From a virus, in IMG/VR virus record IMGVR_UViG_3300044858_005604, positions 1 through 25,069 of that record: a stretch of DNA of 25,069 nucleotides. One strand, 5' to 3'. The position numbers were made by a program, and so were the translations under genes. The notes under the pieces are model-generated. The model saw only the letters and a list, made by a program, of their open reading frames with translations. It did not search any database and was not told the DNA's origin. Positions 2,217-23,676 of the stretch are shown piece by piece (positions within the stretch are counted from its first letter, which is position 1; the number at the start of each line of letters is the position of its first letter).

Positions 2217-3323
2217 ATGGCTACTCAAGAATATGCAGCCAGCATTCAGGGTGTGTCAATCCGTGTCACCCGCCTAGATGCTGCTGGTAACCTAATGACC
2301 GGATCTGGTAATTCATATACCACTTCCGCGTTTATGAGGGTTTCGTTTACCCCTGAATATGAAGAGGGTGACGAAATCACCGAGAAGGGTGCCAACGGTG
2401 TTGTATGTGTAACATACAAGGCTCCCGACACCCTAAAGCGAATCACCATGGAGCTCGCAATCTGTGAGCCAGACCCAGAGCTATCTGCTCTGATTTCTGG
2501 TGGTTTGCTTCTACGCAAGAATCTAGGAACTTCGACCAACCCAGACAACAAGTCCATCGGTTGGGCAGCTCCTGGTGTTGGCGACGACCCAGCCGGAAAC
2601 GGTGTTGCTCTAGAAGTATGGTCACACGCAATCAAGAACGGTAAGAAAGCTTCGGTTCTTCCTTACTTCCACTGGATTTTCCCATTCGTAAAGATGCGCC
2701 AATCTGGCGACCGTGTTATCGAGAATGGCCTAATGGCCAACACCTTCGAGGGCTACGGACTAGGAAACCCTAACTTCCAGGGTGGACCTGACGGCCGCTG
2801 GGAGTTCCCAGTTGCTGCAGAGCGTCCATACGCTTATGCACGCACCGACTGGGCTCCAACTGGCCTAAACGGATTCTACAACTGGACTGATGGAACTGGA
2901 CAGGTTTACTTCACCTCTGCTACTGCAACTAACCCAAGTGATGTAAATGTTGTTAGTGCTTCAGCTCTTCTATCCGGAACCACCGCTACTTTGACCTTCA
3001 GCGCTGCTCCTAGCATCGCTGTTGGAGACGAGATTAAGGTTGAAAACGTTAACCCAGTGCTTAATGGAAATTACACTGTAGCTTCTATCTCAGGAAATAC
3101 AGTTAGCTACTCCAGCGCTGGAATTACCGCAGACATTAGCTCATTCAACGTTTCTCGCGGTGCTAAGGTTAGTGTTGTTAACAGCGTATCCGAGTCCCCA
3201 ACCTACACAGCTGTTACCAGCTTGCCTGCAGGTGGATCCTCGTTTAACGTTCCTGGAAACATTGATTACAATGCAGATACTGCAATCGACAACATCATTG
3301 CTTCTAACGAAAACCCTAGCTAA
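2217..3323 (+). CDS. Major tail protein (tail tube subunit)
   Basis: A 368-residue protein expected to form the hexameric rings of the tail tube. Residues 1 to about 235 are the tube domain, beta-rich, with motifs EEGDEITEKGANG, LELAICEPDPEL-like residues, and the PYFHWIFPFVKMR and EGYGLGNPNF segments I recall from actinophage major tail proteins. Residues about 244-315 form an added module with the pattern VGDEIKVENVNP, then NGNYTVASISGNTVSYSS. This is likely an Ig-like or SH3-like beta domain displayed on the tube surface. The same pattern recurs in two other tail genes here. A clear ribosome site (AAGGAG) precedes the ATG, CTA leucine codons are frequent, and a strong hairpin follows, all consistent with high expression. 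Confidence 0.82.
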   Translation: MATQEYAASIQGVSIRVTRLDAAGNLMTGSGNSYTTSAFMRVSFTPEYEEGDEITEKGANGVVCVTYKAPDTLKRITMELAICEPDPELSALISGGLLLRKNLGTSTNPDNKSIGWAAPGVGDDPAGNGVALEVWSHAIKNGKKASVLPYFHWIFPFVKMRQSGDRVIENGLMANTFEGYGLGNPNFQGGPDGRWEFPVAAERPYAYARTDWAPTGLNGFYNWTDGTGQVYFTSATATNPSDVNVVSASALLSGTTATLTFSAAPSIAVGDEIKVENVNPVLNGNYTVASISGNTVSYSSAGITADISSFNVSRGAKVSVVNSVSESPTYTAVTSLPAGGSSFNVPGNIDYNADTAIDNIIASNENPS

Positions 3324-4709: not shown

Positions 4710-5219
4710 ATGCCAAGCCAAGAACTAGATCTAACTGGAGTCTCTGAGGATGCGGTAAATCTCAGAGATATGATGCAGGGCGTACTGGGAAGGGTACAAT
4801 CTGTTTTTCAGTCTTACAACGTAGAGTTGCCTATGCGCCAATACTGGACGATGGGAACTCCCGCCATAGACTGCGAACAGTTAGTTGTCTATTTCCAGCA
4901 GCTATATTTAGGCCCTCCAGGTGCGCAGGTTGGCGAACCGCAACGTTGCCACGTACCTAGGAGTGCCACTTTAACGATTTCTATCGCCAGACAAACTCCC
5001 ATTGTTAGTCAAAATGGGCGTCCTCCAGCTCCTGAAAAAATCGAGGCATCTGCTGAAGTTTTAGCTATTGACGCTTGGGTTTTAATGGAGTGCATAAACC
5101 AACTCGACCAGTGGGATGAGACTGGTTATGGTGTTGGTGTTATTGCTACTCTAGAAGTTAATCCACCAGAAGGCGGTTTCCAGACAACCGATATGGTTGT
5201 CACAATGGCGGTCCCATAA
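4710..5219 (+). CDS. Head-tail connector / tail terminator-like protein
   Basis: A 169-residue protein. It matches an actinophage family I recall from this operon position: YWTMGTPAIDCEQLVVYF, then GPPGAQVG, a Cys-containing segment (CHVPRSATLTISIARQTPIV), GRPPAP, and a C-terminal EGGFQTTDMVVTMAVP strand. Proteins with this layout are usually called tail terminator or head-to-tail connector proteins. They cap the tail tube or join it to the neck. The start ATG follows the stop of the small Pro-rich gene by 3 bases, with GAGGAG ending that gene as a likely ribosome site. The exact neck role (stopper or terminator) cannot be settled here. Confidence 0.66.
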   Translation: MPSQELDLTGVSEDAVNLRDMMQGVLGRVQSVFQSYNVELPMRQYWTMGTPAIDCEQLVVYFQQLYLGPPGAQVGEPQRCHVPRSATLTISIARQTPIVSQNGRPPAPEKIEASAEVLAIDAWVLMECINQLDQWDETGYGVGVIATLEVNPPEGGFQTTDMVVTMAVP

Positions 5220-5220
5220 A

Positions 5221-5769
5221 ATGCCAGCATACGGTCTGATACCGGATAGTCCACTTTTTTATTTTGGCGGAAAATTAAGAAGAGGCTTATCAAAAAATTT
5301 CAGAAACAAGGGTTTAAATTTAAGACCTAGAAACATACAAGTTTCAATTCAATTTAAAAAACTTGTTGTTTATAAGCCAATTCTGGAATTTGAGTTGAAT
5401 CACAGCTACGGCACTGTGGGTCGACACCTACATAGAACAGCCAACAAAATAACTCAGTTGGCTAGACTTCAGGTTGGCAAAAAAACTGGTCGATTAATGA
5501 GAAGTATAAAGTTCGAACATTTAGCCAAAAATGCCCTGGGCCCTGGAGTCAAAGTTGGTGCCTACACTCATTATGCTCTTTTACATCATCGCGGCACAAA
5601 ACCACATATAATTACCCCCAATAAACCTGGCGGTACTTTGGTATTTAGGAGCGGGTCAAAAATCGTCAGAACTCCTATGGTTAGGCACCCTGGCACCCGC
5701 CCCAACAGGTATTTGACCGACCCTATGACAACAGTAATTAGACAGCAGCGGCGCACACTCAGGGCTTAA
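5221..5769 (+). CDS. Neck/connector protein, HK97 gp10-like
   Basis: A 182-residue basic protein. Key features are a helix ending RLQVGKKTGRLMRSI, then VGAYTHYALLHHRGTKPHII, a VFRSGS strand and VRHPGTRPNRYLTDPM. This tyrosine, His-x-Gly-Thr-x-Pro-His and His-Pro-Gly-Thr layout is typical of HK97 gp10-like connector or tail-completion proteins. The ATG at 5221 directly abuts the previous stop (TAA-ATG). A TTG start 24 bases upstream is possible but would overlap the preceding gene and has no better ribosome site, so I prefer the ATG. The N-terminal 60 residues are less conserved in appearance. Confidence 0.68.
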   Translation: MPAYGLIPDSPLFYFGGKLRRGLSKNFRNKGLNLRPRNIQVSIQFKKLVVYKPILEFELNHSYGTVGRHLHRTANKITQLARLQVGKKTGRLMRSIKFEHLAKNALGPGVKVGAYTHYALLHHRGTKPHIITPNKPGGTLVFRSGSKIVRTPMVRHPGTRPNRYLTDPMTTVIRQQRRTLRA

Positions 5770-5843: not shown

Positions 5844-6176
5844 ATGGCAAAATTTAAGGACTTTGGGTCCCCAAAGATTGAAAATGCAGAACCAATCTCT
5901 TTCAAGCTTTTTGAAGAAGATTTTAACTGTGTACCGGCACTTCCAGGAAAGGTGCTTTTGGACTTGGTAGCTAAATCAAGTTCAGAAAATTCAGCTGACC
6001 AGGCGCTAGTTATTAATGAGTTTTTTTCTAGCGTTTTAACCGCTGAGAGTTTAATTAGATTTAATGCCTTGGTTGTAGACAAAGAAAGAGTTGTTACCAC
6101 CGAGACATTGGGAGAGATTACCGGGTGGCTCATTGAGCAGTACGCAGACCGCCCAAATCCGCAGCCAGAGGTCTAG
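5844..6176 (+). CDS. Tail assembly chaperone, short (gpG-like) form
   Basis: A 110-residue acidic protein directly upstream of the tape measure region, the standard place for the tail assembly chaperone. It begins MAKFKDFGSPKIENAEP and contains a helical core (PGKVLLDLVAKSSS, then VINEFFSSVL, FNALVVDKERVV, LGEITGWLIEQYADRPNP). Relatives keep the tape measure soluble and recruit the tail tube subunit. Most ribosomes would terminate at TAG 6174-6176; a minority shift frame at CCCAAAT to make the longer product. Ribosome site: TAGGAATGA. Confidence 0.82.
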   Translation: MAKFKDFGSPKIENAEPISFKLFEEDFNCVPALPGKVLLDLVAKSSSENSADQALVINEFFSSVLTAESLIRFNALVVDKERVVTTETLGEITGWLIEQYADRPNPQPEV

Positions 6177-6532
6177 CAGAATGGGCCATTGATCTCTGGC
6201 CATATGTAAATGGAAAGGCGCTAACTTTAGGCCTAAGGTTAGCAGACATGGAGATGCGTGACATGCTAGATGTTGTGCACTATCTGTTTGAAGAGGATTC
6301 AAGATACTCTTCAGCCGAAGAAGCAGAGTCTGTTAGCGCCATTCGCACTTCCATATATGGAAGACTATATGGAACGACATATAAATATAAAGTTAAATCA
6401 AAATCTAGTGGTAACGACATGAATTACTCATTCAGTGACCCTAATGAAGTTAAACCATACATTCCGCCAACTGAATTTGACCCGGAGTCTGCTGACCCGT
6501 TTGGCGGTCTTCTAGATGCTCCGATAAGGTAA
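5844..6532 (+). CDS. Tail assembly chaperone, -1 frameshift fusion (gpGT-like)
   Basis: Product of a programmed -1 frameshift, 229 residues if the slip is at 6152-6158. The first 105 codons (to AAT 6156-6158) come from the short chaperone frame, then translation continues in the -1 frame from TCC 6158. The extension frame is open from 6137 to 6532, and its first 37 codons before the first ATG (6248) encode a sensible sequence (GLAEWAIDLWPYVNGKALTL). They run straight into LDVVHYLFEED, a motif I recall from actinophage second chaperones. The extension has no ribosome site of its own at 6248. It ends 3 bases before the tape measure ATG. Lambda G/GT is the classical model. Confidence 0.82.
6152..6158 (+). 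promoter_or_regulatory. -1 ribosomal frameshift slippery site C CCA AAT
   Basis: In the reading frame of the short chaperone the seven bases read C CCA AAT, an exact X XXY YYZ heptamer. After slippage the P- and A-site codons become CCC and AAA, with matched first two anticodon pairs. It lies in the window where both frames are open (6137-6173), 15 bases before the zero-frame stop. A weak hairpin (GGCCA 6184-6188 with TGGCC 6197-6201) lies 25 bases downstream, rather far for a stimulator. Confidence 0.82.
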
Positions 6533-6535
6533 AAA

Positions 6536-9412
6536 ATGGCAGTAATCGGACATGCAGAAATAGTTGTTAGAGCTATAACTAACAACTTCGAAAAAGAACT
6601 CAAGGACACGCTTAAAAATGTGTCTAAGAGTATTTCTGTTGGTGCCGGCAGAAGAATTGGTGATGGCTTTGCTGATGGATTCAATCGAAGCAGAGCTAGT
6701 GGCATGTTTGGAAAAATTGCCGATGGCCTTAGAAGCATGGTACCGGAGGCCGAAGCTGCCAGAGAAAGATTCCAAAGCTTAGTACGAACCGGCTTTGTTT
6801 TACAGGGCGTACTTGGAGCGATAGTTGGTGCCATATCGTCCGTTGTAGTCTCGATTGGTCCTTTAGTGGGTTCTCTGCTTAAAGCTGCGTCATCGGCCGG
6901 AATTTTACTTAATGCTTTTGTTGCTCTTAGGGTAGCAATAGCCGTTGGTAGAACTGCTTTTGGAAATATCTTTCAAGCTGTTCAACAAGCTACTCAAGTA
7001 AATGGTGGCTACGCGAAATCCTTAAAAGACATTCGCGAAGAGTGGCAGCAACTTCTATTTGATGCTGAAGCAGCTTCATATAGTGAAGAAGAGGCAGCAT
7101 TAAATCTCGAGAAAGCATTTAATAATCTTCGTCGAATGGCGGACCTTCCGCCAAACTCTATGGCTAGACGAGAGGCGGAGCTTGAGTATAGACAGGCAGA
7201 TTTAGCCTATAGGCGAGCTAAAGACAGAACTCAAGACTTAAATGAAACTGTTCAGGAAGGCTTTGATGCATTTAAAGATGCTCAGAGGACCGCTGGTGGG
7301 GCTGGAGCCGATCCATTATCTCAGTTAAATGAGGCTCAAAGAAAGTTTGCTGAGAGGCTTATTCAGTTAAACCCGAAGCTTGACCGACTAAAGCTAAAGA
7401 TGTCAGACGCTTTCCTAACGCCTCTGTATGAAACTGTAGATGTATTTGAAAAAAGACTGCTCCCTATCTTAGATAAAAGACTACCTGAGATAGCTGGCCA
7501 AGCTGGTGAAGCAATCAATCAGGTGTTTACTGGACTAAATTTTGACAGAATAAACACAATTCTCTCGGAGATGACTACGCCATTCGAAGAGGGTGGCAGA
7601 AGCAACCTTCAGCTTTTTGGCGACATCCTGGGACAAATTCTAGACCTCTTCCTAAAGATACTTGATGCTACTGGAAAACCACTAAATGATCTTTTAACTT
7701 CTATAAAAAACACTTTTGGTGATTTTGTCGCTAACGCTGACACTAACAAGATGGAGACGTTTTTTACCAACGCTTTAGAAGAGGCCAAAAAGTGGGTGCC
7801 AATAATTTCCAACATCTTTGGCGGCCTAAAAACTTTGATGGATCTTACAACTGGTCCTGGTAGCGCTGGCGAGTACATGCTCGAGTGGTTTACTGAAGCC
7901 ACTGCAGCATTTAAAAACATGTTTGCAGAAGACCCCGAGGCCGGAAAAACGTTCTTTAAAGATGCAATGGTAAATGCTAGGTCTGTTCTATCTTCAATTG
8001 GTGCATTTATTAAAGCGATTTTGGGAGTTGCAGATAACCCGGCCATCAAAGAAACCTTTGACAGATTAAAAGAGGGTGCGCCAGGCTTTGAAAGATTCCT
8101 AGATGAAATTATTGAAGCCGGCCCTTCTTTCGCAGATCTTTTAATAAATGTTGGAAGAATTATTACCGCGCTAACAGATTCAGAGCAGCTCTCTGCGTTC
8201 TTCGACACTCTTAGTGTTGCTGCCGGCAAATTTGCAGACGCTCTAGAGTCAGAGGGAGTTCAGGGATTTTTAGATAGAGTTGGTCCACTATTTGGTGCAC
8301 TATCTGCAATTGGTGTAGTTATTGATGCAATAACATTTGGATTCCAAGTGTTAGTTGGTTACGCTGCGCTTTTCTATTTAAATACTCAAAAAGCTTTTGA
8401 CTTTTTAAAACTTACTCCAGCAAATATATCTAAAGCTTTTGGTATTTTAGGAAATGTCCTAAAAGGCGCTGGAGTACTCGGAGTAATTTTATTTATAGTT
8501 TCAAAAATAGATGAATTTTATAATAAATTTTCAGATTTTCGCGGAATGGTAGATAGAGTTTTTGCAAATATTGCAGAAGCTTTCGGGGAACTTTGGGCTC
8601 AGTTGAGTGAATTATTTGAGAATCTATTTGGTGGAAATGGTATTGGCGGAATAATAGAGGCACTGGACCCAGTAATAAAATTTATTCTTGAATTTTTAAT
8701 TCCAATTGCTGGCTATATAGTAGAGCGATTTATAAATGCATTTACATTTATTGTAAGCGTTATAAATACAATAGTTTCACCAATTATGCAAATAATTAAG
8801 GGTCTTGTAGAAGGAATAGTTCTTCTATTCACTGATTTTCCTACTGGTGTAAAGAAAATTGCAGCAACAGTTGTTACTATCTTTGTTGGAATTGGTGAGA
8901 TAATTGTTAACTTCTTTGTTGACATAATTAACTGGATTTTGGGGGGAATCGAAAATCTTGTAAGAGCTATTGGAAATACTCCTCTTGGAAAAGTTATTAA
9001 AGACTTGACTGGCATTAATTTGGCAGCTGCAAAGCTTATTAGATTGGAAAAAGTTCAGTGGGTCAGAGATGCAATAGCAAATACCAACTCAAAACTTGGA
9101 TTAAACAAGCAATCAGCTAATGTTACAAACAGAAATCGAGCCGATGGAACACCAAAACTTGCAATGGGCGGAACTATCTATCCATCTAGAGGCGGAACCC
9201 TGGTTACAGTAGCTGAAGCCGGCCGTCCAGAGCGCATCGAGCCACTAAATCCAAACGGTTTATCTGACCGCGACATAGCACTAATCAACCAGATGGGCGG
9301 CGGACCCAAGGTAAGCATCACGGTAAATCCAGCCCCTGGCATGGACGAAAAAGAACTTGCTGCGGCTGTTTCTCGCCGACTTGCATTTGAGATTCGTAAA
9401 GGAACAATCTAA
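6536..9412 (+). CDS. Tape measure protein
   Basis: A 958-residue protein and the second-longest gene here; it sets tail length and passes through the tail tube during DNA delivery. The N terminus (residues 1-85) is helical. Hydrophobic stretches lie at about 86-138, 580-620, 635-660 and 702-808, typical membrane-inserting segments of tape measures. Between them are charged helical regions (about 160-260). The C terminus (from about 875) carries AMGGTIYP, GGTLVTVAEAGRPERIEPLNP and a final helix, the conserved tape measure tail-tip end. At about 1.5 angstroms per residue the tail would be near 140 nm (inference). No peptidase or lysozyme motif was recognised. The region around 8440-8960 is markedly A+T rich. 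The 3' end overlaps the next ATG by one base (TAATG). Confidence 0.93.
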   Translation: MAVIGHAEIVVRAITNNFEKELKDTLKNVSKSISVGAGRRIGDGFADGFNRSRASGMFGKIADGLRSMVPEAEAARERFQSLVRTGFVLQGVLGAIVGAISSVVVSIGPLVGSLLKAASSAGILLNAFVALRVAIAVGRTAFGNIFQAVQQATQVNGGYAKSLKDIREEWQQLLFDAEAASYSEEEAALNLEKAFNNLRRMADLPPNSMARREAELEYRQADLAYRRAKDRTQDLNETVQEGFDAFKDAQRTAGGAGADPLSQLNEAQRKFAERLIQLNPKLDRLKLKMSDAFLTPLYETVDVFEKRLLPILDKRLPEIAGQAGEAINQVFTGLNFDRINTILSEMTTPFEEGGRSNLQLFGDILGQILDLFLKILDATGKPLNDLLTSIKNTFGDFVANADTNKMETFFTNALEEAKKWVPIISNIFGGLKTLMDLTTGPGSAGEYMLEWFTEATAAFKNMFAEDPEAGKTFFKDAMVNARSVLSSIGAFIKAILGVADNPAIKETFDRLKEGAPGFERFLDEIIEAGPSFADLLINVGRIITALTDSEQLSAFFDTLSVAAGKFADALESEGVQGFLDRVGPLFGALSAIGVVIDAITFGFQVLVGYAALFYLNTQKAFDFLKLTPANISKAFGILGNVLKGAGVLGVILFIVSKIDEFYNKFSDFRGMVDRVFANIAEAFGELWAQLSELFENLFGGNGIGGIIEALDPVIKFILEFLIPIAGYIVERFINAFTFIVSVINTIVSPIMQIIKGLVEGIVLLFTDFPTGVKKIAATVVTIFVGIGEIIVNFFVDIINWILGGIENLVRAIGNTPLGKVIKDLTGINLAAAKLIRLEKVQWVRDAIANTNSKLGLNKQSANVTNRNRADGTPKLAMGGTIYPSRGGTLVTVAEAGRPERIEPLNPNGLSDRDIALINQMGGGPKVSITVNPAPGMDEKELAAAVSRRLAFEIRKGTI

Positions 9413-10431: not shown

Positions 10432-12552
10432 ATGGCAATTTCTACTTCACCAGACAACCAGTCTGTGAATTATCGCTATTTTGTTTGCGATTTAATGACT
10501 AACGCTCTGCTTGCAGAAATACCATTTAAGGGCGTTTCGTATTCTAGGTCACTTACAGAAGCCGGAACATTTACTGGCGACATTGCCGTAACTGAAGACA
10601 CCTATAACTTAAACCTATACGAAAATACTTTGCCTGCAAAAACAGCTTTGTATATTGTTAGAAATGGGGTTTGCGTATGGGGAGGCATAGTCTGGGGAAG
10701 AACTTACAGCCTTATCGACAAAGTTCTTTCTGTTACTGCTGCAGAATTTCCTAGCTATTTAAACAGAAGAGTTGTATGGAAAACTTGGAATAGCGCGTAC
10801 GAAGCTTCTGCAATTGTAGAAAGCGGAACGGCAACAGTAACCCTAAAACTTGGGCAGTATCCATTTGCAGTAGGTGAAACAGTTTGGATTGATTGGGGTA
10901 AAAATTATGCTAAATACAACGGCTATTTTACAATACTAACCACTGGAGTAACTGTTGAGGACAGTTTGTCATTTTTTACTGCTTCTGCAACATATGTGAA
11001 TGAAAATGGGCAAAACAAAACTATTCCAGATATGCCAGTTGGATTTCTTGACCCGGATACTGGCGAAGAAACTTTTATTACCGTAGAAACTAGACAAGAC
11101 ACTTACAACTATGCTCGTGATTTAATTAATGAGCTAAAGACTGACCTTTTTGACTTTGATTTTGCAAACGATGATATCAGGCCCGGTATTGATTTATTTA
11201 ATGAAATTGCTTCTGTTTCTAGGTCTGGCAATATTGCTACAGTTGTTTTAACAAAAAAGCACGAACTCGTTGCTGGCCAAAAAGTTTCTATTTCAGATGT
11301 AGAAATCGCCGGGTTTGACAATAAAGAAGCAATTGTTCGTTCAGTTCCAAATGATACTACATTTACATATAACAATTCTGGCTCTAATGTTACTTCTAAC
11401 ATAAGCCCGTTTGAGTACACAGTTCAATCTTTTAGTAGAAGCGGAAATATTGCTAAATACACAACTACAACTTCTCATGCTTTGGCAGCAGATGACATAG
11501 TCTACATAGAAAATGTCAGCGAAACTTTTGATGGTTATTTTAGAGTTTACGATGCCCCGAGCTCAACAACTTTTAGAGTTGTAATGGCTGGAGCAAATAT
11601 TGCAAATAGTAATACTGACGTAAACTCTGTTACCTTTCCCCCGAAAGTAAGAAGGCGGGGCGCTATTACTTATGGAACATACGGCGAGCACACAACCTTA
11701 GGAGATTTAGGATTTGACCTGTCTCAGGCTCCACTTGAGAGTCAAAAATTAGAGCTAAATCCAATTATTAGGGGTTTTGAGCTAAAAACTGTCGCAGAAA
11801 TACTTGAAGAATACTCATCAAAACCAAATGGTTTCGAGTATCGAATTGATTGTGAATACGATGCGGCAACGAATACATTCAAAAAATATTTTAAATTTTT
11901 GCCACTAATCCCTCAAAGTCTTTCAGATTATTTAGATTCTTTGTCTCCAGGATGGAGTGGAGATATACCAGCTAGTGCTTACGGTGCTCAAAATCTTATA
12001 TTTGAATACCCTGGAAACATTTTAGAGGCTCAGTTTGAGGAAAACGCCGAAGAAGCGGCAACTAGAATTTTTGTAAAGGGTAAAGACCCTAACTTAAATT
12101 CTGACGCAAGCCAACCCTATTCTTCGGCTTCCAACCACAAACTGTTGAATCAGGGGTGGCCACTAATTGACGATGTTGACGACTTAGACTCTCCCGACGA
12201 AACAGTACTTTGGAAACAAGCTGCTAGGCTATTAGAAGAGTCAGTTCCCCCAATAAGTACGTTTACTATTTCTGTAAATGGCTCTGCCAACCCAATGCTG
12301 GGCTCCTATAAGCCAGGAGACTGGTGCTCTATAAAACTAAATGATGACTTTGTTAGCTTAAGAGCAAACAGCTATTTGGAGCAAGACTACGGAACTGATA
12401 GTGGAGTTTTGGTTAGAAAAATAATTTCATACTCAGTTACTATTCCAGATACGCCAAGTTACCCGGAAGAAGTTTCATTAGACTTAGTTACAGAGCCCTC
12501 TATTCCAATTAGCGGGATTCAAATTATTGACGGAAAGGCAATACTAGAGTAA
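10432..12552 (+). CDS. Tal/hub-like minor tail protein with three inserted beta modules
   Basis: A 706-residue protein resembling the actinophage family often named ReqiPepy6 gp37-like, or tail hub. N-terminal hallmarks are YRYFVCDLMTNALLAEIPF, YSRSLTEAGTFTGDI, and RNGVCVWGGIVWGRTYSL. The C-terminal part contains FKKYFKFLPLIPQSL, EYPGNILEAQFEENAEEAATRIF and GSYKPGDWCSIKLND, matching the second half of hub proteins. Inserted at residues about 129-189, 259-326 and 329-402 are three copies of a short beta module (pattern GxxATVxLxxxHxxxxGDxVxIxxVxxxFDGxFxVxxxxxxTTFxY). The protein should sit at the tail tip, below Dit, and may anchor the fibre. The ribosome site is AAAGGA. It overlaps the fibre gene by TAATG. 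Confidence 0.75.
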   Translation: MAISTSPDNQSVNYRYFVCDLMTNALLAEIPFKGVSYSRSLTEAGTFTGDIAVTEDTYNLNLYENTLPAKTALYIVRNGVCVWGGIVWGRTYSLIDKVLSVTAAEFPSYLNRRVVWKTWNSAYEASAIVESGTATVTLKLGQYPFAVGETVWIDWGKNYAKYNGYFTILTTGVTVEDSLSFFTASATYVNENGQNKTIPDMPVGFLDPDTGEETFITVETRQDTYNYARDLINELKTDLFDFDFANDDIRPGIDLFNEIASVSRSGNIATVVLTKKHELVAGQKVSISDVEIAGFDNKEAIVRSVPNDTTFTYNNSGSNVTSNISPFEYTVQSFSRSGNIAKYTTTTSHALAADDIVYIENVSETFDGYFRVYDAPSSTTFRVVMAGANIANSNTDVNSVTFPPKVRRRGAITYGTYGEHTTLGDLGFDLSQAPLESQKLELNPIIRGFELKTVAEILEEYSSKPNGFEYRIDCEYDAATNTFKKYFKFLPLIPQSLSDYLDSLSPGWSGDIPASAYGAQNLIFEYPGNILEAQFEENAEEAATRIFVKGKDPNLNSDASQPYSSASNHKLLNQGWPLIDDVDDLDSPDETVLWKQAARLLEESVPPISTFTISVNGSANPMLGSYKPGDWCSIKLNDDFVSLRANSYLEQDYGTDSGVLVRKIISYSVTIPDTPSYPEEVSLDLVTEPSIPISGIQIIDGKAILE

Positions 12553-15500
12553 TGGGAATTCGTCGTCGTCGCAGAAAATTAACTAGTCTAATGAGCAGAC
12601 TGGAGCAACGCGTTCGTTCTGTCGAGATGCGCTCTACTAATCTTCTAACCAACAGTGAAATACAAGCTTTACTACCAATAGACACTGCTCCCGAAACTCC
12701 CGCTTCTGTGGTCGGTCCAGATGCCCCGGGACAGTTTAGAAAAATACAAGACGCTTATTTATATACGGCAAAACATGCCGGAACCCAGCAGGACCGAGTT
12801 GAAATATATTTAGAGTCAGATTTAGGTGTAGAAACAAATGAAAAAATTGAAGTACGAGGCATCTATATCACCACTGACGCCAGTTTACAGATAGATGTAG
12901 ATGGAACTTTTGACGTAAAACATACTGACACTCCACCCTGGGACAACAGAAATCTTCCAATTAAAGTTACTCCGCCAAGAGTAAAGCACGACCCTACTCA
13001 AGATCAGCTTGCTGGCGTAACGATTACAAACACATATTCATTTGTCCCCGAAACTCAGGCTCCTACCACTTTAAGTGCTAGAAAAAGGCTTTCAACTAAA
13101 CGACTAATAAGCACGTATGCAATTACTGGCACAACTGCAACTATTACTACAAGCTCTGCTCATAGTTTTAAAGCGGGAGATATACTTTTCTTTGACTTAT
13201 TTTCCTCTAGCCCAACTGTTTTTGGCTTAGATGGTCTTTTTAAAATTGATTCTGTAACGAGTAACACTCTTGTCTATACTTTGCCAGCGGGCGTAGTTAC
13301 TCCAGTTCCGGCCACTGCCCCTGTTTCTGCTAGCTATGTATTTCCAGTTGCTAGAGAATATCTTCCAATTGGGTCTACGTGGGCGGATAGCACTAATAGT
13401 AAAATCTATTATTGGGACGGCATTCGTTGGGTAGATTTTTCTACTGTTGCTGACCCCATTAGAGATGGAGACCCTCCCGCAGCTCCAACAAATTTACAGG
13501 TTACTTCTGTTCCAAAAGTACATGGCCCTCTTTTTAATTCATATTCTGAAGTAACACTAACTTGGACTGCCCCGACTTTAACTGAAGCAGGAGAGCCTCT
13601 AACAGACTTAATAGGTTATGTAATTAAATACCGAACTAGTCCGACTGCTAACTGGGATGAACATCTGCTACCTACCACTTCTGCATCGTCATTTGTATTT
13701 GGCCCTAATTTTGATTTAGAGCAGGGTGAAACTTACTATTTCGAGCTATACGCAAGAGACTCTGGTAGCCAAGACTCTGATCCTGCCACTGCTACTCACA
13801 CTACCCAGCTAAAAACAGGCGACCACACTACTTATCCACCAACTCCTCCCATTGCTACTAGTAGATTAGGAACAATTACCGTTACTTGGGATGGATTTTT
13901 AAAGACAGGTCCAAGTACAACTGTAGCTGCTCCAGCTGACATAGTTGTGATGAAAATTTATCTTTCAACGGTTTCTGGGTTTACTCCTGGACCTACCAAT
14001 TTGGCTTTAAGCACTAGAGTATTTGGTCCGGAGGGCGGGTTTGATGTTCTTACAGATTTAAATTACAACACTTCTTACTACATAAAAATATCTCTAGTAA
14101 ATACTTCTGGAGTGGAAGGGTCCCCCTCCGAACAAGTGACTGCTCAGGTCACGCCTTTAGTTAACACTGACATAATTTATTCGACTTTAAATACTTGGCC
14201 CTTTGTTGATGGGACAGTTTCGGCCAACGCATTGGCAGACGGCTCTGTAATTGCGTCTAAAATTTTAGGCGGGGCTGTTACTGCCTCGGCCTTAGCTGCA
14301 AATGCAGTAACTTCAGTAGCATTAGCAGCAAATGCAGTAACTGCAGCAGCTATAGCAGCCAATGCCGTGACCGGGCCCGCTATTTCTTCTTCTGCCATTA
14401 CAGCGAACAAAATATCTGCTGGTGCTGTAACTGCTGTATCCATAGCGGCGGGGGCTATAACCAGCGAAAAAATTACAGCTGGAGCTATTGGCGCTCAGCA
14501 AATAGCAGCTGATGCAATTACTGCAGATAAAATTTCTGCCGGAGCTATTGGAGCCGACGAGATAGCTGCCGGAGCTATTATTGCTGGAAAGATTGGTGCT
14601 GACGCAGTTACAGCTGCCACCATAGCAGCTGGCGCAATTACTGCTGGAAAAATAGCAACTAATGCCGTAGAAGCAGACAAAATAAATGCCGGAGCAATTA
14701 CTGCTGTAAAAATAGCAACTGATGCAATTACTGCAGACAAAATTCAGGCTGGCGCTATTGTGGCCGACAAAATTCAAGCCGATGCTATAAGCACCTATGT
14801 TTTTAATGGACGAGAAATTAGACTTTCTGCTTTTAATACCAATCAAAATCCAAAAATTAGCTTGACTAAAGATAGAATTGCAGCTTTTAGGTCAAACGGA
14901 ACAACAACCTTCCGACTAACTGCCGCTGGTGATTTCTATGCGGATGACGTATTTATTGATAGTGCAACTGTTACTGGAAATATTACTGGTGGAACTCTTA
15001 GGACCGCATCTACTGGCAAGCGCGTAGAAATATTGGGTTCAACTAATAGTATTAGATTTAGAGATACTGGTGGAACTCTTAGGGGGGAAATAGAGGGAAC
15101 CACAGGTGGCCTCACTACTGACGTTACAGGGCAACATGCATTTCAGGTTGGTGGTGTTCAAGCTTTTTTGATTACTTCTTCCGGTATTGGAATACCCACT
15201 GGGAGAACAGTTAGCGGAAGTCTAGATGCAACTGGAAACGTTAGTGGACAGACTATTACAGCTGACGTAAATTTTATTAGGGCCCTTTCTGTTGGTGGCG
15301 GTTTAACTGGTGCATCCATATCTAATACTGGTGCAATAATAAGAACAACATCCTCTGAGAGATACAAAACAGACGTAGAGCAACTATCAATTCCCTATGA
15401 GTCTGTCTTGTCTCTTAACCCCAAAAAATTTAAAAGACTAGAAGAATCAGCTGAAGACCCTAATGCAAAATATTACCCTGGATTTATAGCAGAAGATTTA

Positions 15501-15677
15501 GCTGGAACTCCACTAGATATTTTTGTTTTCTATGACAAAGATGAAGACGGAAACTTACGTCCAGAAGGTATTCACTATGGGGAACTAACTGCCGCTCTAG
15601 TCGAAGCAATTAAAGAACAGCACAATATTTTAACTTCTTTAGAGGCTAGAATAATTGAATTAGAGGCTAAGGGCTAG
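12552..15677 (+). CDS. Tail fibre/receptor-binding protein with FN3, decapeptide repeats and S74 chaperone
   Basis: A 1041-residue protein, probably a homotrimeric fibre. Parts in order: a basic N terminus with RRRRR near residue 4 and a helix; a beta-rich attachment region; one beta module (about 186-260); fibronectin type III domains at about 307-422 and 427-537; 17 decapeptide repeats at 575-744 (pattern AxTAxKIxAG); a shaft or tip (about 750-930); and a C-terminal S74 intramolecular chaperone (about 930-1041). In the latter S934-SERY-K939 fits the SxxRxK catalytic pattern. Chaperones of this type fold the trimer and then cleave themselves off. The start overlaps the hub gene by TAATG. FN3 boundaries are estimated by eye. 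Confidence 0.82.
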   Translation: MGIRRRRRKLTSLMSRLEQRVRSVEMRSTNLLTNSEIQALLPIDTAPETPASVVGPDAPGQFRKIQDAYLYTAKHAGTQQDRVEIYLESDLGVETNEKIEVRGIYITTDASLQIDVDGTFDVKHTDTPPWDNRNLPIKVTPPRVKHDPTQDQLAGVTITNTYSFVPETQAPTTLSARKRLSTKRLISTYAITGTTATITTSSAHSFKAGDILFFDLFSSSPTVFGLDGLFKIDSVTSNTLVYTLPAGVVTPVPATAPVSASYVFPVAREYLPIGSTWADSTNSKIYYWDGIRWVDFSTVADPIRDGDPPAAPTNLQVTSVPKVHGPLFNSYSEVTLTWTAPTLTEAGEPLTDLIGYVIKYRTSPTANWDEHLLPTTSASSFVFGPNFDLEQGETYYFELYARDSGSQDSDPATATHTTQLKTGDHTTYPPTPPIATSRLGTITVTWDGFLKTGPSTTVAAPADIVVMKIYLSTVSGFTPGPTNLALSTRVFGPEGGFDVLTDLNYNTSYYIKISLVNTSGVEGSPSEQVTAQVTPLVNTDIIYSTLNTWPFVDGTVSANALADGSVIASKILGGAVTASALAANAVTSVALAANAVTAAAIAANAVTGPAISSSAITANKISAGAVTAVSIAAGAITSEKITAGAIGAQQIAADAITADKISAGAIGADEIAAGAIIAGKIGADAVTAATIAAGAITAGKIATNAVEADKINAGAITAVKIATDAITADKIQAGAIVADKIQADAISTYVFNGREIRLSAFNTNQNPKISLTKDRIAAFRSNGTTTFRLTAAGDFYADDVFIDSATVTGNITGGTLRTASTGKRVEILGSTNSIRFRDTGGTLRGEIEGTTGGLTTDVTGQHAFQVGGVQAFLITSSGIGIPTGRTVSGSLDATGNVSGQTITADVNFIRALSVGGGLTGASISNTGAIIRTTSSERYKTDVEQLSIPYESVLSLNPKKFKRLEESAEDPNAKYYPGFIAEDLAGTPLDIFVFYDKDEDGNLRPEGIHYGELTAALVEAIKEQHNILTSLEARIIELEAKG
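14274..14783 (+). repeat. 17 tandem 30-bp coding repeats in the fibre gene
   Basis: Seventeen uninterrupted in-frame units of exactly 30 bases encode decapeptides of the form A-[IV]-T-A-x-K-I-x-A-[GDN]. The first units have Ala or Leu in place of Lys-Ile (AVTASALAAN, AVTSVALAAN). Later units are more uniform (AITADKISAG type). A partial unit lies just upstream (about GSVIASKILGG). Codons differ between units, so the array is old and under protein-level selection rather than a fresh slippage expansion. Hydrophobic residues every five positions suggest a repeating trimeric shaft. Confidence 0.9.
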
Positions 15678-22665: not shown

Positions 22666-23676
22666 ATGAAAATTTTATTTACAGGCATGGGATCCCATCA
22701 TTGCAAAAAACCAACTAATACGAGTTTTTTTACTATTTTAGATACTGTTCTTTCCGAACATGCTGAAATTACCTGGGCATCCCCAGAGATGTCTTGGAAA
22801 CTAGAAGATCTAGAAAAGTATGATCTAATTATTTTTGGTCTGCTTCCCCCGACTTCCTTGAGCGCAAACAAACTTTATGGAGCGCTAAACGTACTTGGAC
22901 TAATGTTTGATTCCCCCAAGCTTAAGCTTGTCGTGGACAGCCCTCAGGTTTGGCAGTATAAAAACAGCATAGCTGCGTCTATTAAAAATCCTTCTATTCT
23001 TTTTGGCAATTTCTACGCTAAAAGAGAGGGTTATCAAAAAGCTTTAAAAAATCCTTCCGTTGTAGAAAAGGCAATTGCTCACATGATGGTTACTGAATGG
23101 CCAACCATTATTTACCCGAGTCTTCCTTGGAATACGGATGAGAAGGTAGCTTCTCTGCTTGGTTTCGGGGATGAGAAAAAAGTTTTAGGAGTGAACTTTG
23201 ATTCTTTGTTCATAGATCCAGAGACTCCTAGAATTGGCAGAAAAGACTACTGGTCAGTAGAAAACATCAAAAATAGCTGGCTTGAGTATGTAAACAAGTC
23301 AACAGTTTTTCCCAAAGAACCAACTAAGCTTGGGAGGAAAACGGATGATGACTATGCTCTGGAAGTTATCAGGTCCGGTGTTGGCTTAATTATTCCGCCT
23401 CAGGAAAGAACTTTACTTACTTGGTGGAACTATAGAATAATTCAAGCCCTAAATACTTCTACCCCGCTGGTCACCTACTGGCCTGACACTCAGGGGTTTA
23501 GCCCGAGTTGGTCTATGTTGGCTTATCAGGTAGAAGATATGTCTCCGGCTCAGAGGCAGCAACTTGCCTCTACCCAGAGGGGCGTCTATTTGGAGGCGTT
23601 GCCATCTACAAGCGAACTTTCCGCTGAAGTAGAAAAAATTCTGATAGTATCTAACTTAGAGAGGACTAGATTTTAA
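22666..23676 (+). CDS. GT-B-like putative glycosyltransferase (conserved phage protein)
   Basis: A 336-residue protein. N-terminal Rossmann-like half: MKILFTGMGSHHCKK, then a Leu-rich helix, a DLIIFGLLPPTS strand and a LVVDSPQVWQY segment. C-terminal half: SGVGLIIPPQ, then TWWNYRIIQALNTSTPLVTYW (253-272), similar to the GT-B segment in which a Trp/Ser-rich helix is followed by ALxxGTPV. I recall similar proteins in actinophages, annotated as unknown or glycosyltransferase. A donor, acceptor and target (DNA base or virion protein) cannot be named. No transmembrane helix is seen. The gene has only a poor ribosome site and follows the SSB hairpin, so it may have its own transcription start. Confidence 0.6.
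   Translation: MKILFTGMGSHHCKKPTNTSFFTILDTVLSEHAEITWASPEMSWKLEDLEKYDLIIFGLLPPTSLSANKLYGALNVLGLMFDSPKLKLVVDSPQVWQYKNSIAASIKNPSILFGNFYAKREGYQKALKNPSVVEKAIAHMMVTEWPTIIYPSLPWNTDEKVASLLGFGDEKKVLGVNFDSLFIDPETPRIGRKDYWSVENIKNSWLEYVNKSTVFPKEPTKLGRKTDDDYALEVIRSGVGLIIPPQERTLLTWWNYRIIQALNTSTPLVTYWPDTQGFSPSWSMLAYQVEDMSPAQRQQLASTQRGVYLEALPSTSELSAEVEKILIVSNLERTRF

Follow-up and report, generated by a model that had tools for sequence, protein, structure and literature searches.

Tail assembly chaperone frames of actinobacterial phages probably joined by a -1 frameshift at a conserved C_CCN site

The short tail assembly chaperone gene considered here (A) and the -1 reading frame that overlaps its end (B) are very probably a lambda G/GT-type chaperone pair, joined by a -1 shift at C_CCA_AAT. 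In this manuscript, the window refers to the whole 25,069-base IMG/VR virus record. The initial annotation had proposed that a -1 programmed frameshift joins the two chaperone frames, and at the level of sequence this proposal is supported by conservation of the frame relation, by selection, and by constraint on the slip site and on a downstream hairpin. The mechanism itself, a -1 frameshift in tail assembly chaperone genes, is known; what is new is an unannotated member in a large family.

Results

Gene order and overlapping frames

The overlapping pair lies between the genes for the major tail protein and the tape measure protein, which is the usual position of tail assembly chaperones and the arrangement of a G/GT-type pair. 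The relevant features of the window are as follows.

2217..3323, + strand: major tail protein gene (phrog_792, E 4e-24)
5844..6176, + strand: ORF A, putative short, G-like tail assembly chaperone of 110 aa (by the annotation of relatives, and Pfam PF23781 in the family)
6137..6532, + strand: B, T-like, the open region of the -1 frame (stop at 6530-6532)
6174..6176, + strand: 0-frame stop TAG of ORF A, which sits in the hairpin loop (6174-6190)
6248..6250, + strand: first ATG of the -1 frame, the likely B start for a gene-finder and one that B expression would not need
6536..9412, + strand: tape measure protein gene (phrog_58, E 5e-27)

The upstream neighbours are the major head protein (72), the major tail protein (2217), a head-tail adaptor (3399) and a tail-completion-like protein (5197), and downstream the tape measure gene (6536) is followed by a Dit-like protein (9412). 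The last upstream stop in the -1 frame is at 6134, and A and the -1 frame are jointly open over 37 nt (6137-6173); the initial annotation had recognized this joint overlap, with its length given as 36 bases. It had also counted 37 codons ahead of the first ATG of the -1 frame at 6248, and this figure agrees with ours. The portion of B decoded after a shift would be 6158-6529, and the predicted A-B fusion is 229 aa long.

Three other regions of the window have features of their own. The tail-completion-like ORF (5197-5769) is listed with a TTG start and overlaps the end of the preceding ORF, and its real start may be more internal. The tail-fibre-like protein at 12552-15677 (1041 aa) contains numerous short repeats of the AGAITADKI type in its middle, and an ORF of 336 aa at 22666-23676, which has no PHROG match, follows a Sak4-like gene (21285) and another ORF (22064).

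Relatives and their frame relation

The first sample of relatives, from two IMG/VR scans, comprises 132 loci; 98 distinct sequences were left after duplicate removal, with the window and the named phages included, and the 74 representatives are those with <92% nucleotide identity in A. The second sample is from a B-profile scan with 552 relatives; of the 80 that were retrieved, 30 were new sequences. This set of 30 is enriched for B proteins close to the query. With the apparently broken L104 set aside, each of the 98 distinct sequences has B in the -1 frame of A, as do 30/30 of the new sequences, so that a comparison with the chaperone pairs of related phages, which the initial annotation had suggested as a check, finds the relation kept throughout. 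Every relative retains an open A/B overlap. L104 is the sole exception to the frame relation among those of the 132 loci that have both parts; its A looks broken when compared with L103, a locus of equal B identity, possibly by a contig indel.

The closest cultured relatives are Microbacterium phages, Arthrobacter phages and one Actinomycetia phage, and their records name A a tail assembly chaperone and B a separate hypothetical protein. In L001-L009 (OP068343, NC_073468, OQ999401, MZ150783, OK040793, ON637770, OK040794, MN234211 and MN234206, respectively) the B start is late or ad hoc, and the joined frameshift product is annotated in none of these nine cultured records. For the Arthrobacter phages Atuin, Mimi and Racecar, B was missed by tblastn, yet the -1 frame and the sequence CGC CCT ACG are present.

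Sequence evidence for translation of B upstream of any start codon

Across B codons 13-31, which precede the ATG of the window and where only the -1 frame is open, dN/dS is 0.13 in that frame, while the same bases give 1.4 and 2.4 in the other two frames. This purifying selection bears out the earlier impression that the codons before the ATG read as coherent protein. The W-W-NGK block of B is conserved among the representatives, with Trp codons 10 and 15 and Gly codon 20 invariant in all 74. When ATG, GTG or TTG was sought ahead of this block, before codon 20, none was found in 59 of the 74 representatives; the first possible start is at codon 49 in L023, L025 and L034, at codon 57 in L133 and at codon 72 in L054. 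In those phages an independent start therefore cannot make this segment, and B would be expressed solely as an extension of A, lacking a conserved start of its own, as is characteristic of the G/GT type. A conserved B start with a ribosome site, which had been named as the observation that would count against a frameshift, was sought in the relatives and not found. The first ATGs of B (codons 32 and 37) do have SD-like bases close by, so a separate short B product may be made in addition.

Protein families and predicted folds

Searches of PHROGs and Pfam with A and B of the window gave no usable match. Across the family, PF23781 (Phage_TAC_16) matches 24 of 71 members weakly, with a best E of 3.6e-4. 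A profile search of PDB sequences with A gave no match, and Foldseek searches of the PDB with the predicted structures of A and B gave nothing below E 0.001. The predicted fold of A is a beta-hairpin with four helices (pLDDT 82). B is predicted to be helical, and its confident helix begins at the junction. The two top matches of B in BFVD are weak (E 0.24 and 0.79), and both are named tail assembly chaperone.

The slip site and its conservation

The elements of the putative frameshift signal, in order along the window, are as follows.

6135..6140, + strand: position of a possible SD-like stimulator (GAGGAG or GGAG in many relatives, a weak GAGCAG here)
6150..6152, + strand: Arg103 codon CGC, invariant despite synonymy; the slip site begins at its third base
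6152..6158, + strand: slippery heptamer C_CCA_AAT, in X_XXY_YYZ register inside the overlap, with the C_CCN core at 6152-6155
6159..6163, + strand: spacer CCGCA, 5 nt, between heptamer and hairpin
6164..6173, + strand: 5' arm of the hairpin, GCCAGAGGUC, a putative stimulator
6191..6200, + strand: 3' arm of the hairpin, GAUCUCUGGC, which includes the constrained Leu codon CTC (6194-6196)

The heptamer CCCAAAT at 6152-6158 is the sole in-register X_XXY_YYZ sequence across 6060-6200; the initial annotation was correct in reporting C CCA AAT in exact register within the overlap. Taken alone, the heptamer is weak evidence: the window's remaining coding genes have 0.0065 in-frame X_XXY_YYZ sequences per codon, which corresponds to a chance expectation of about 0.08 for the 12-codon overlap. 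The frameshift is convincing because of conservation across relatives, and not because of the motif alone.

Arg103 is CGC in 73 of the 74 representatives and in 30/30 loci of the second set, and its synonymous identity (obs/exp 4.23) contrasts with that of a control, Arg72 (0.96). The third base of Pro104 is unconstrained (obs/exp 1.04). Along A, synonymous constraint is near background before Arg103 and high across the dual-coded codons after Pro104, and the rapidly evolving positions pass from third bases of A to third bases of B across the slip site, which locates the switch of frame. On the protein tree, the third base of Arg103 changed once and that of Pro104 at least 11 times, compared with 12-28 changes at each variable third position of the seven codons before Arg103. 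Of the 74 representatives, 27 have a -1-frame stop directly beside the xCG-CCC of the site. In L185, a 0-frame TAA directly follows CCA AAT and a -1-frame TGA precedes CCG; here the stretch open in both frames is just CCGCCCAAAT.

The invariant part of the site, as read from the aligned sequences, is C_CCN only and not the full heptamer. C_CCA_AAT or C_CCA_AAA is complete in 13 of the 74 representatives vs 28 of the 30 second-set sequences, and the heptamer state changed at least 4 times on the tree. In 60 representatives the codon after C_CCN leaves the heptamer incomplete, i.e., the site is a Z_ZZN tetramer; the forms seen in other relatives include C_CCG_GAA, C_CCT_ACG, C_CCC_ACC and C_CCC_GAG. 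Since C_CCN is common to the family, tRNA-Pro can re-pair on CCC, and since the full heptamer occurs in a minority of representatives, several relatives probably shift on tRNA-Pro alone. One representative (L118, CGT CCT) has neither heptamer nor C_CCN. L118, L120 and L123 form the sole group without C_CCN (site CGT CCT CAA CAG GGG), and in these the shift may occur elsewhere, e.g., at G_GGG. Slippage at G_GGG, considered on account of a downstream xxG GGG in some relatives, is not general across the family.

Downstream hairpin and upstream SD-like element

A 10-bp hairpin that starts 5 nt 3' of the heptamer is conserved in the family, and is an addition to the initial annotation, which had missed it. 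It was read from a gapless 80-column alignment, in which the two arms pair in 86% of cells vs 27-49% in controls with one arm slid. In 29 of the 30 new loci the 3' arm carries CTC as its Leu codon, and the constraint on this codon (obs/exp 4.03) is the only comparable one outside the dual-coded region. Covariation is modest, with 10 cells changed on both sides; an example of compensation is G-C to U-A in L036, L065 and L090. RNAalifold applied to all 72 sequences failed to recover the hairpin owing to a few divergent members in which it is broken; the count of paired cells for the given structure did recover it. The hairpin of the window itself (-17.9 kcal/mol) is moderately better than shuffles (z -1.94) and no better than synonymous recodings, 41% of which are as good, and so the support for the hairpin comes from the family and not from the window alone.

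Some members have other structures. In Atuin and Mimi the corresponding place is occupied by another hairpin, of 8 bp. The Microbacterium phage members L001, L004 and L005 deviate from the common stem, and L001 has an alternative hairpin farther downstream (UGGGCCAU / AUGGCCCA).

Upstream SD-like stimulators are an optional part of -1 frameshift signals, as in dnaX. A possible element of this kind is located 10-14 nt upstream of the site in many relatives; the mean signal of the family has its minimum at about -18 to -11, and the signal is weak in the window.

Proposed mechanism and alternatives

In the mechanism that we propose, the majority of ribosomes would terminate A at 6174. A minority would have CCA-AAT in the decoding sites on reaching the hairpin (6164-6200); these would move back by one base at C_CCA_AAT and read on in the -1 frame, which would give the A-B fusion of 229 residues. 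On the lambda model, A may coat the tape measure, and the rarer product, the fusion, may recruit the major tail protein through its B extension.

An alternative is that B is a separate gene, translated from its own ATG (6248 or near) by reinitiation or coupling after A, with the overlap and the heptamer incidental. Many relatives do have an ATG at B codon 32 or 37, in some cases preceded by GGAGG at 8 nt, and the annotated B start of Pumpernickel overlaps the A stop. We consider a separate gene very unlikely, since strong protein-level constraint precedes any start codon, most representatives have no candidate start before codon 20 (with first starts as late as those of L025 and L054), and the invariant CGC and the constrained Leu CTC would be left unexplained. 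Splitting of a single gene by a sequencing or assembly error, which is a generic concern with metagenome contigs and nothing more, is improbable in the extreme given the identical -1 split in all independent contigs and in finished genomes of cultured phages. Transcriptional rather than ribosomal slippage is scarcely more credible: the longest run at the site is three bases, so there is no long homopolymer, and the bacterial case that has been described involves runs of 9 A or T (PMC5009743).

Within the preferred explanation, ribosomal frameshifting, there is also a choice of which tRNAs slip. A tandem slip at the site of the window would give the junction R-P-N-S, while a slip of tRNA-Pro alone, after which AAA is read as Lys, would give R-P-K-S; judged from the bases present, both routes are open, and they differ in their junctions (P-N-S vs P-K-S). 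The junction predicted earlier, PN then SAARGL, thus holds if both tRNAs slip and fails if tRNA-Pro slips alone (P-K-SAARGL). The second route, in which tRNA-Pro moves from CCN to CCC, re-pairing at AAT is dispensable and the heptamer merely improves a C_CCN site, is a tentative one, and is compatible with the overall explanation. It is consistent with the family-wide conservation of C_CCN alone, with the changes at the Pro third base (at least 11, vs one for the first C), and with following codons (GAA, ACG, ACC and GAG) that re-pair in the -1 frame poorly or not at all; moreover, C_CC.N tetramers are among the -1 motifs known from E. coli (PMC4066793), and slippage of peptidyl-tRNA alone has experimental support (Atkins et al. 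2016; PMC5009743). Against it are the presence of the tandem heptamer in the window and in 28/30 of the second set, and the far higher efficiency of heptamers in E. coli (PMC4066793). For the family as a whole, we regard as evenly balanced the broader idea that frameshifting is programmed by a bare C_CCN (tRNA-Pro alone) with an SD-like element and a fixed hairpin, the heptamer having been gained or lost several times.

Discussion

The annotation is corrected here for a large family of actinobacterial phages, with >550 matching IMG/VR stretches, in which B has been filed as a separate hypothetical gene or given a start that is too late. The family also provides a natural series of sites, in which the hairpin and C_CCN are fixed and the A-site codon is variable, so that the question of one vs two slipping tRNAs becomes testable, in part in the cultured Microbacterium and Arthrobacter phages. 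Tools that demand X_XXY_YYZ would overlook many of these sites. Programming by a bare C_CCN, if true, would put to natural use a motif that is known chiefly from constructs, and would account for tail genes that have no detectable slippery sequence. According to PRFect, some SEA-PHAGES genomes have annotated frameshifts without a recognised motif (PMC10885494); the present C_CCN and hairpin family may be one natural explanation for these, a link that we infer.

Comparison with known systems

The -1 frameshift of tail assembly chaperones, exemplified by lambda G/GT, is conserved in dsDNA phages (Xu, Hendrix and Duda 2004, as cited in PMC3711429; PMC5009743, section 9). The present pair shares with lambda G/GT its location between the major tail protein and the tape measure, the short A and longer A-B products (here predicted) made by a -1 shift near the end of A, and a slippery heptamer. 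It differs in that no sequence similarity to the lambda proteins was detected, and in that the family has a C_CCN core in place of a fixed heptamer, together with a conserved hairpin. The HK97 tail assembly chaperone 2ob9 is matched by the predicted fold of A in the VIA comparison only (Z 5.0, rmsd 5.9, 84 residues), at 8% identity, and with scores of this size the common arrangement may be incidental. This chaperone ranks below 3fgx (Z 8.0), an uncharacterised Bacillus protein, and 5ir0 also has Z 5.0.

The named relatives with a homologous A are Microbacterium phages Cece, Pumpernickel, A3Wally, Zooman and Big4, Actinomycetia phage DSL-LC01, and Arthrobacter phages Atuin, Mimi and Racecar. 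They have the same gene order, -1 B frame and CGC-CCN site, with 32-51% identity in A, and differ in having C_CCG_GAA or C_CCT_ACG in place of the canonical heptamer.

The closest experimental counterpart of the site is the series of Z_ZZN and X_XXZ_ZZN motifs assayed in E. coli (Sharma et al. 2014; PMC4066793). These assays used IS3 or IS911 stimulators in E. coli, rather than the present hairpin in actinobacteria. With a strong pseudoknot, C_CC.U and C_CC.C exceeded background more than fourfold, and C_CCA and C_CCG did so 1.8- to 3.6-fold, while the related heptamer C_CC.A_AA.G reached 54%. The heptamer of the window, C_CCA_AAU, is one of the 64 included in the series, and C_CCN, the part common to the family, is a tested tetramer class that requires a 3' structure.
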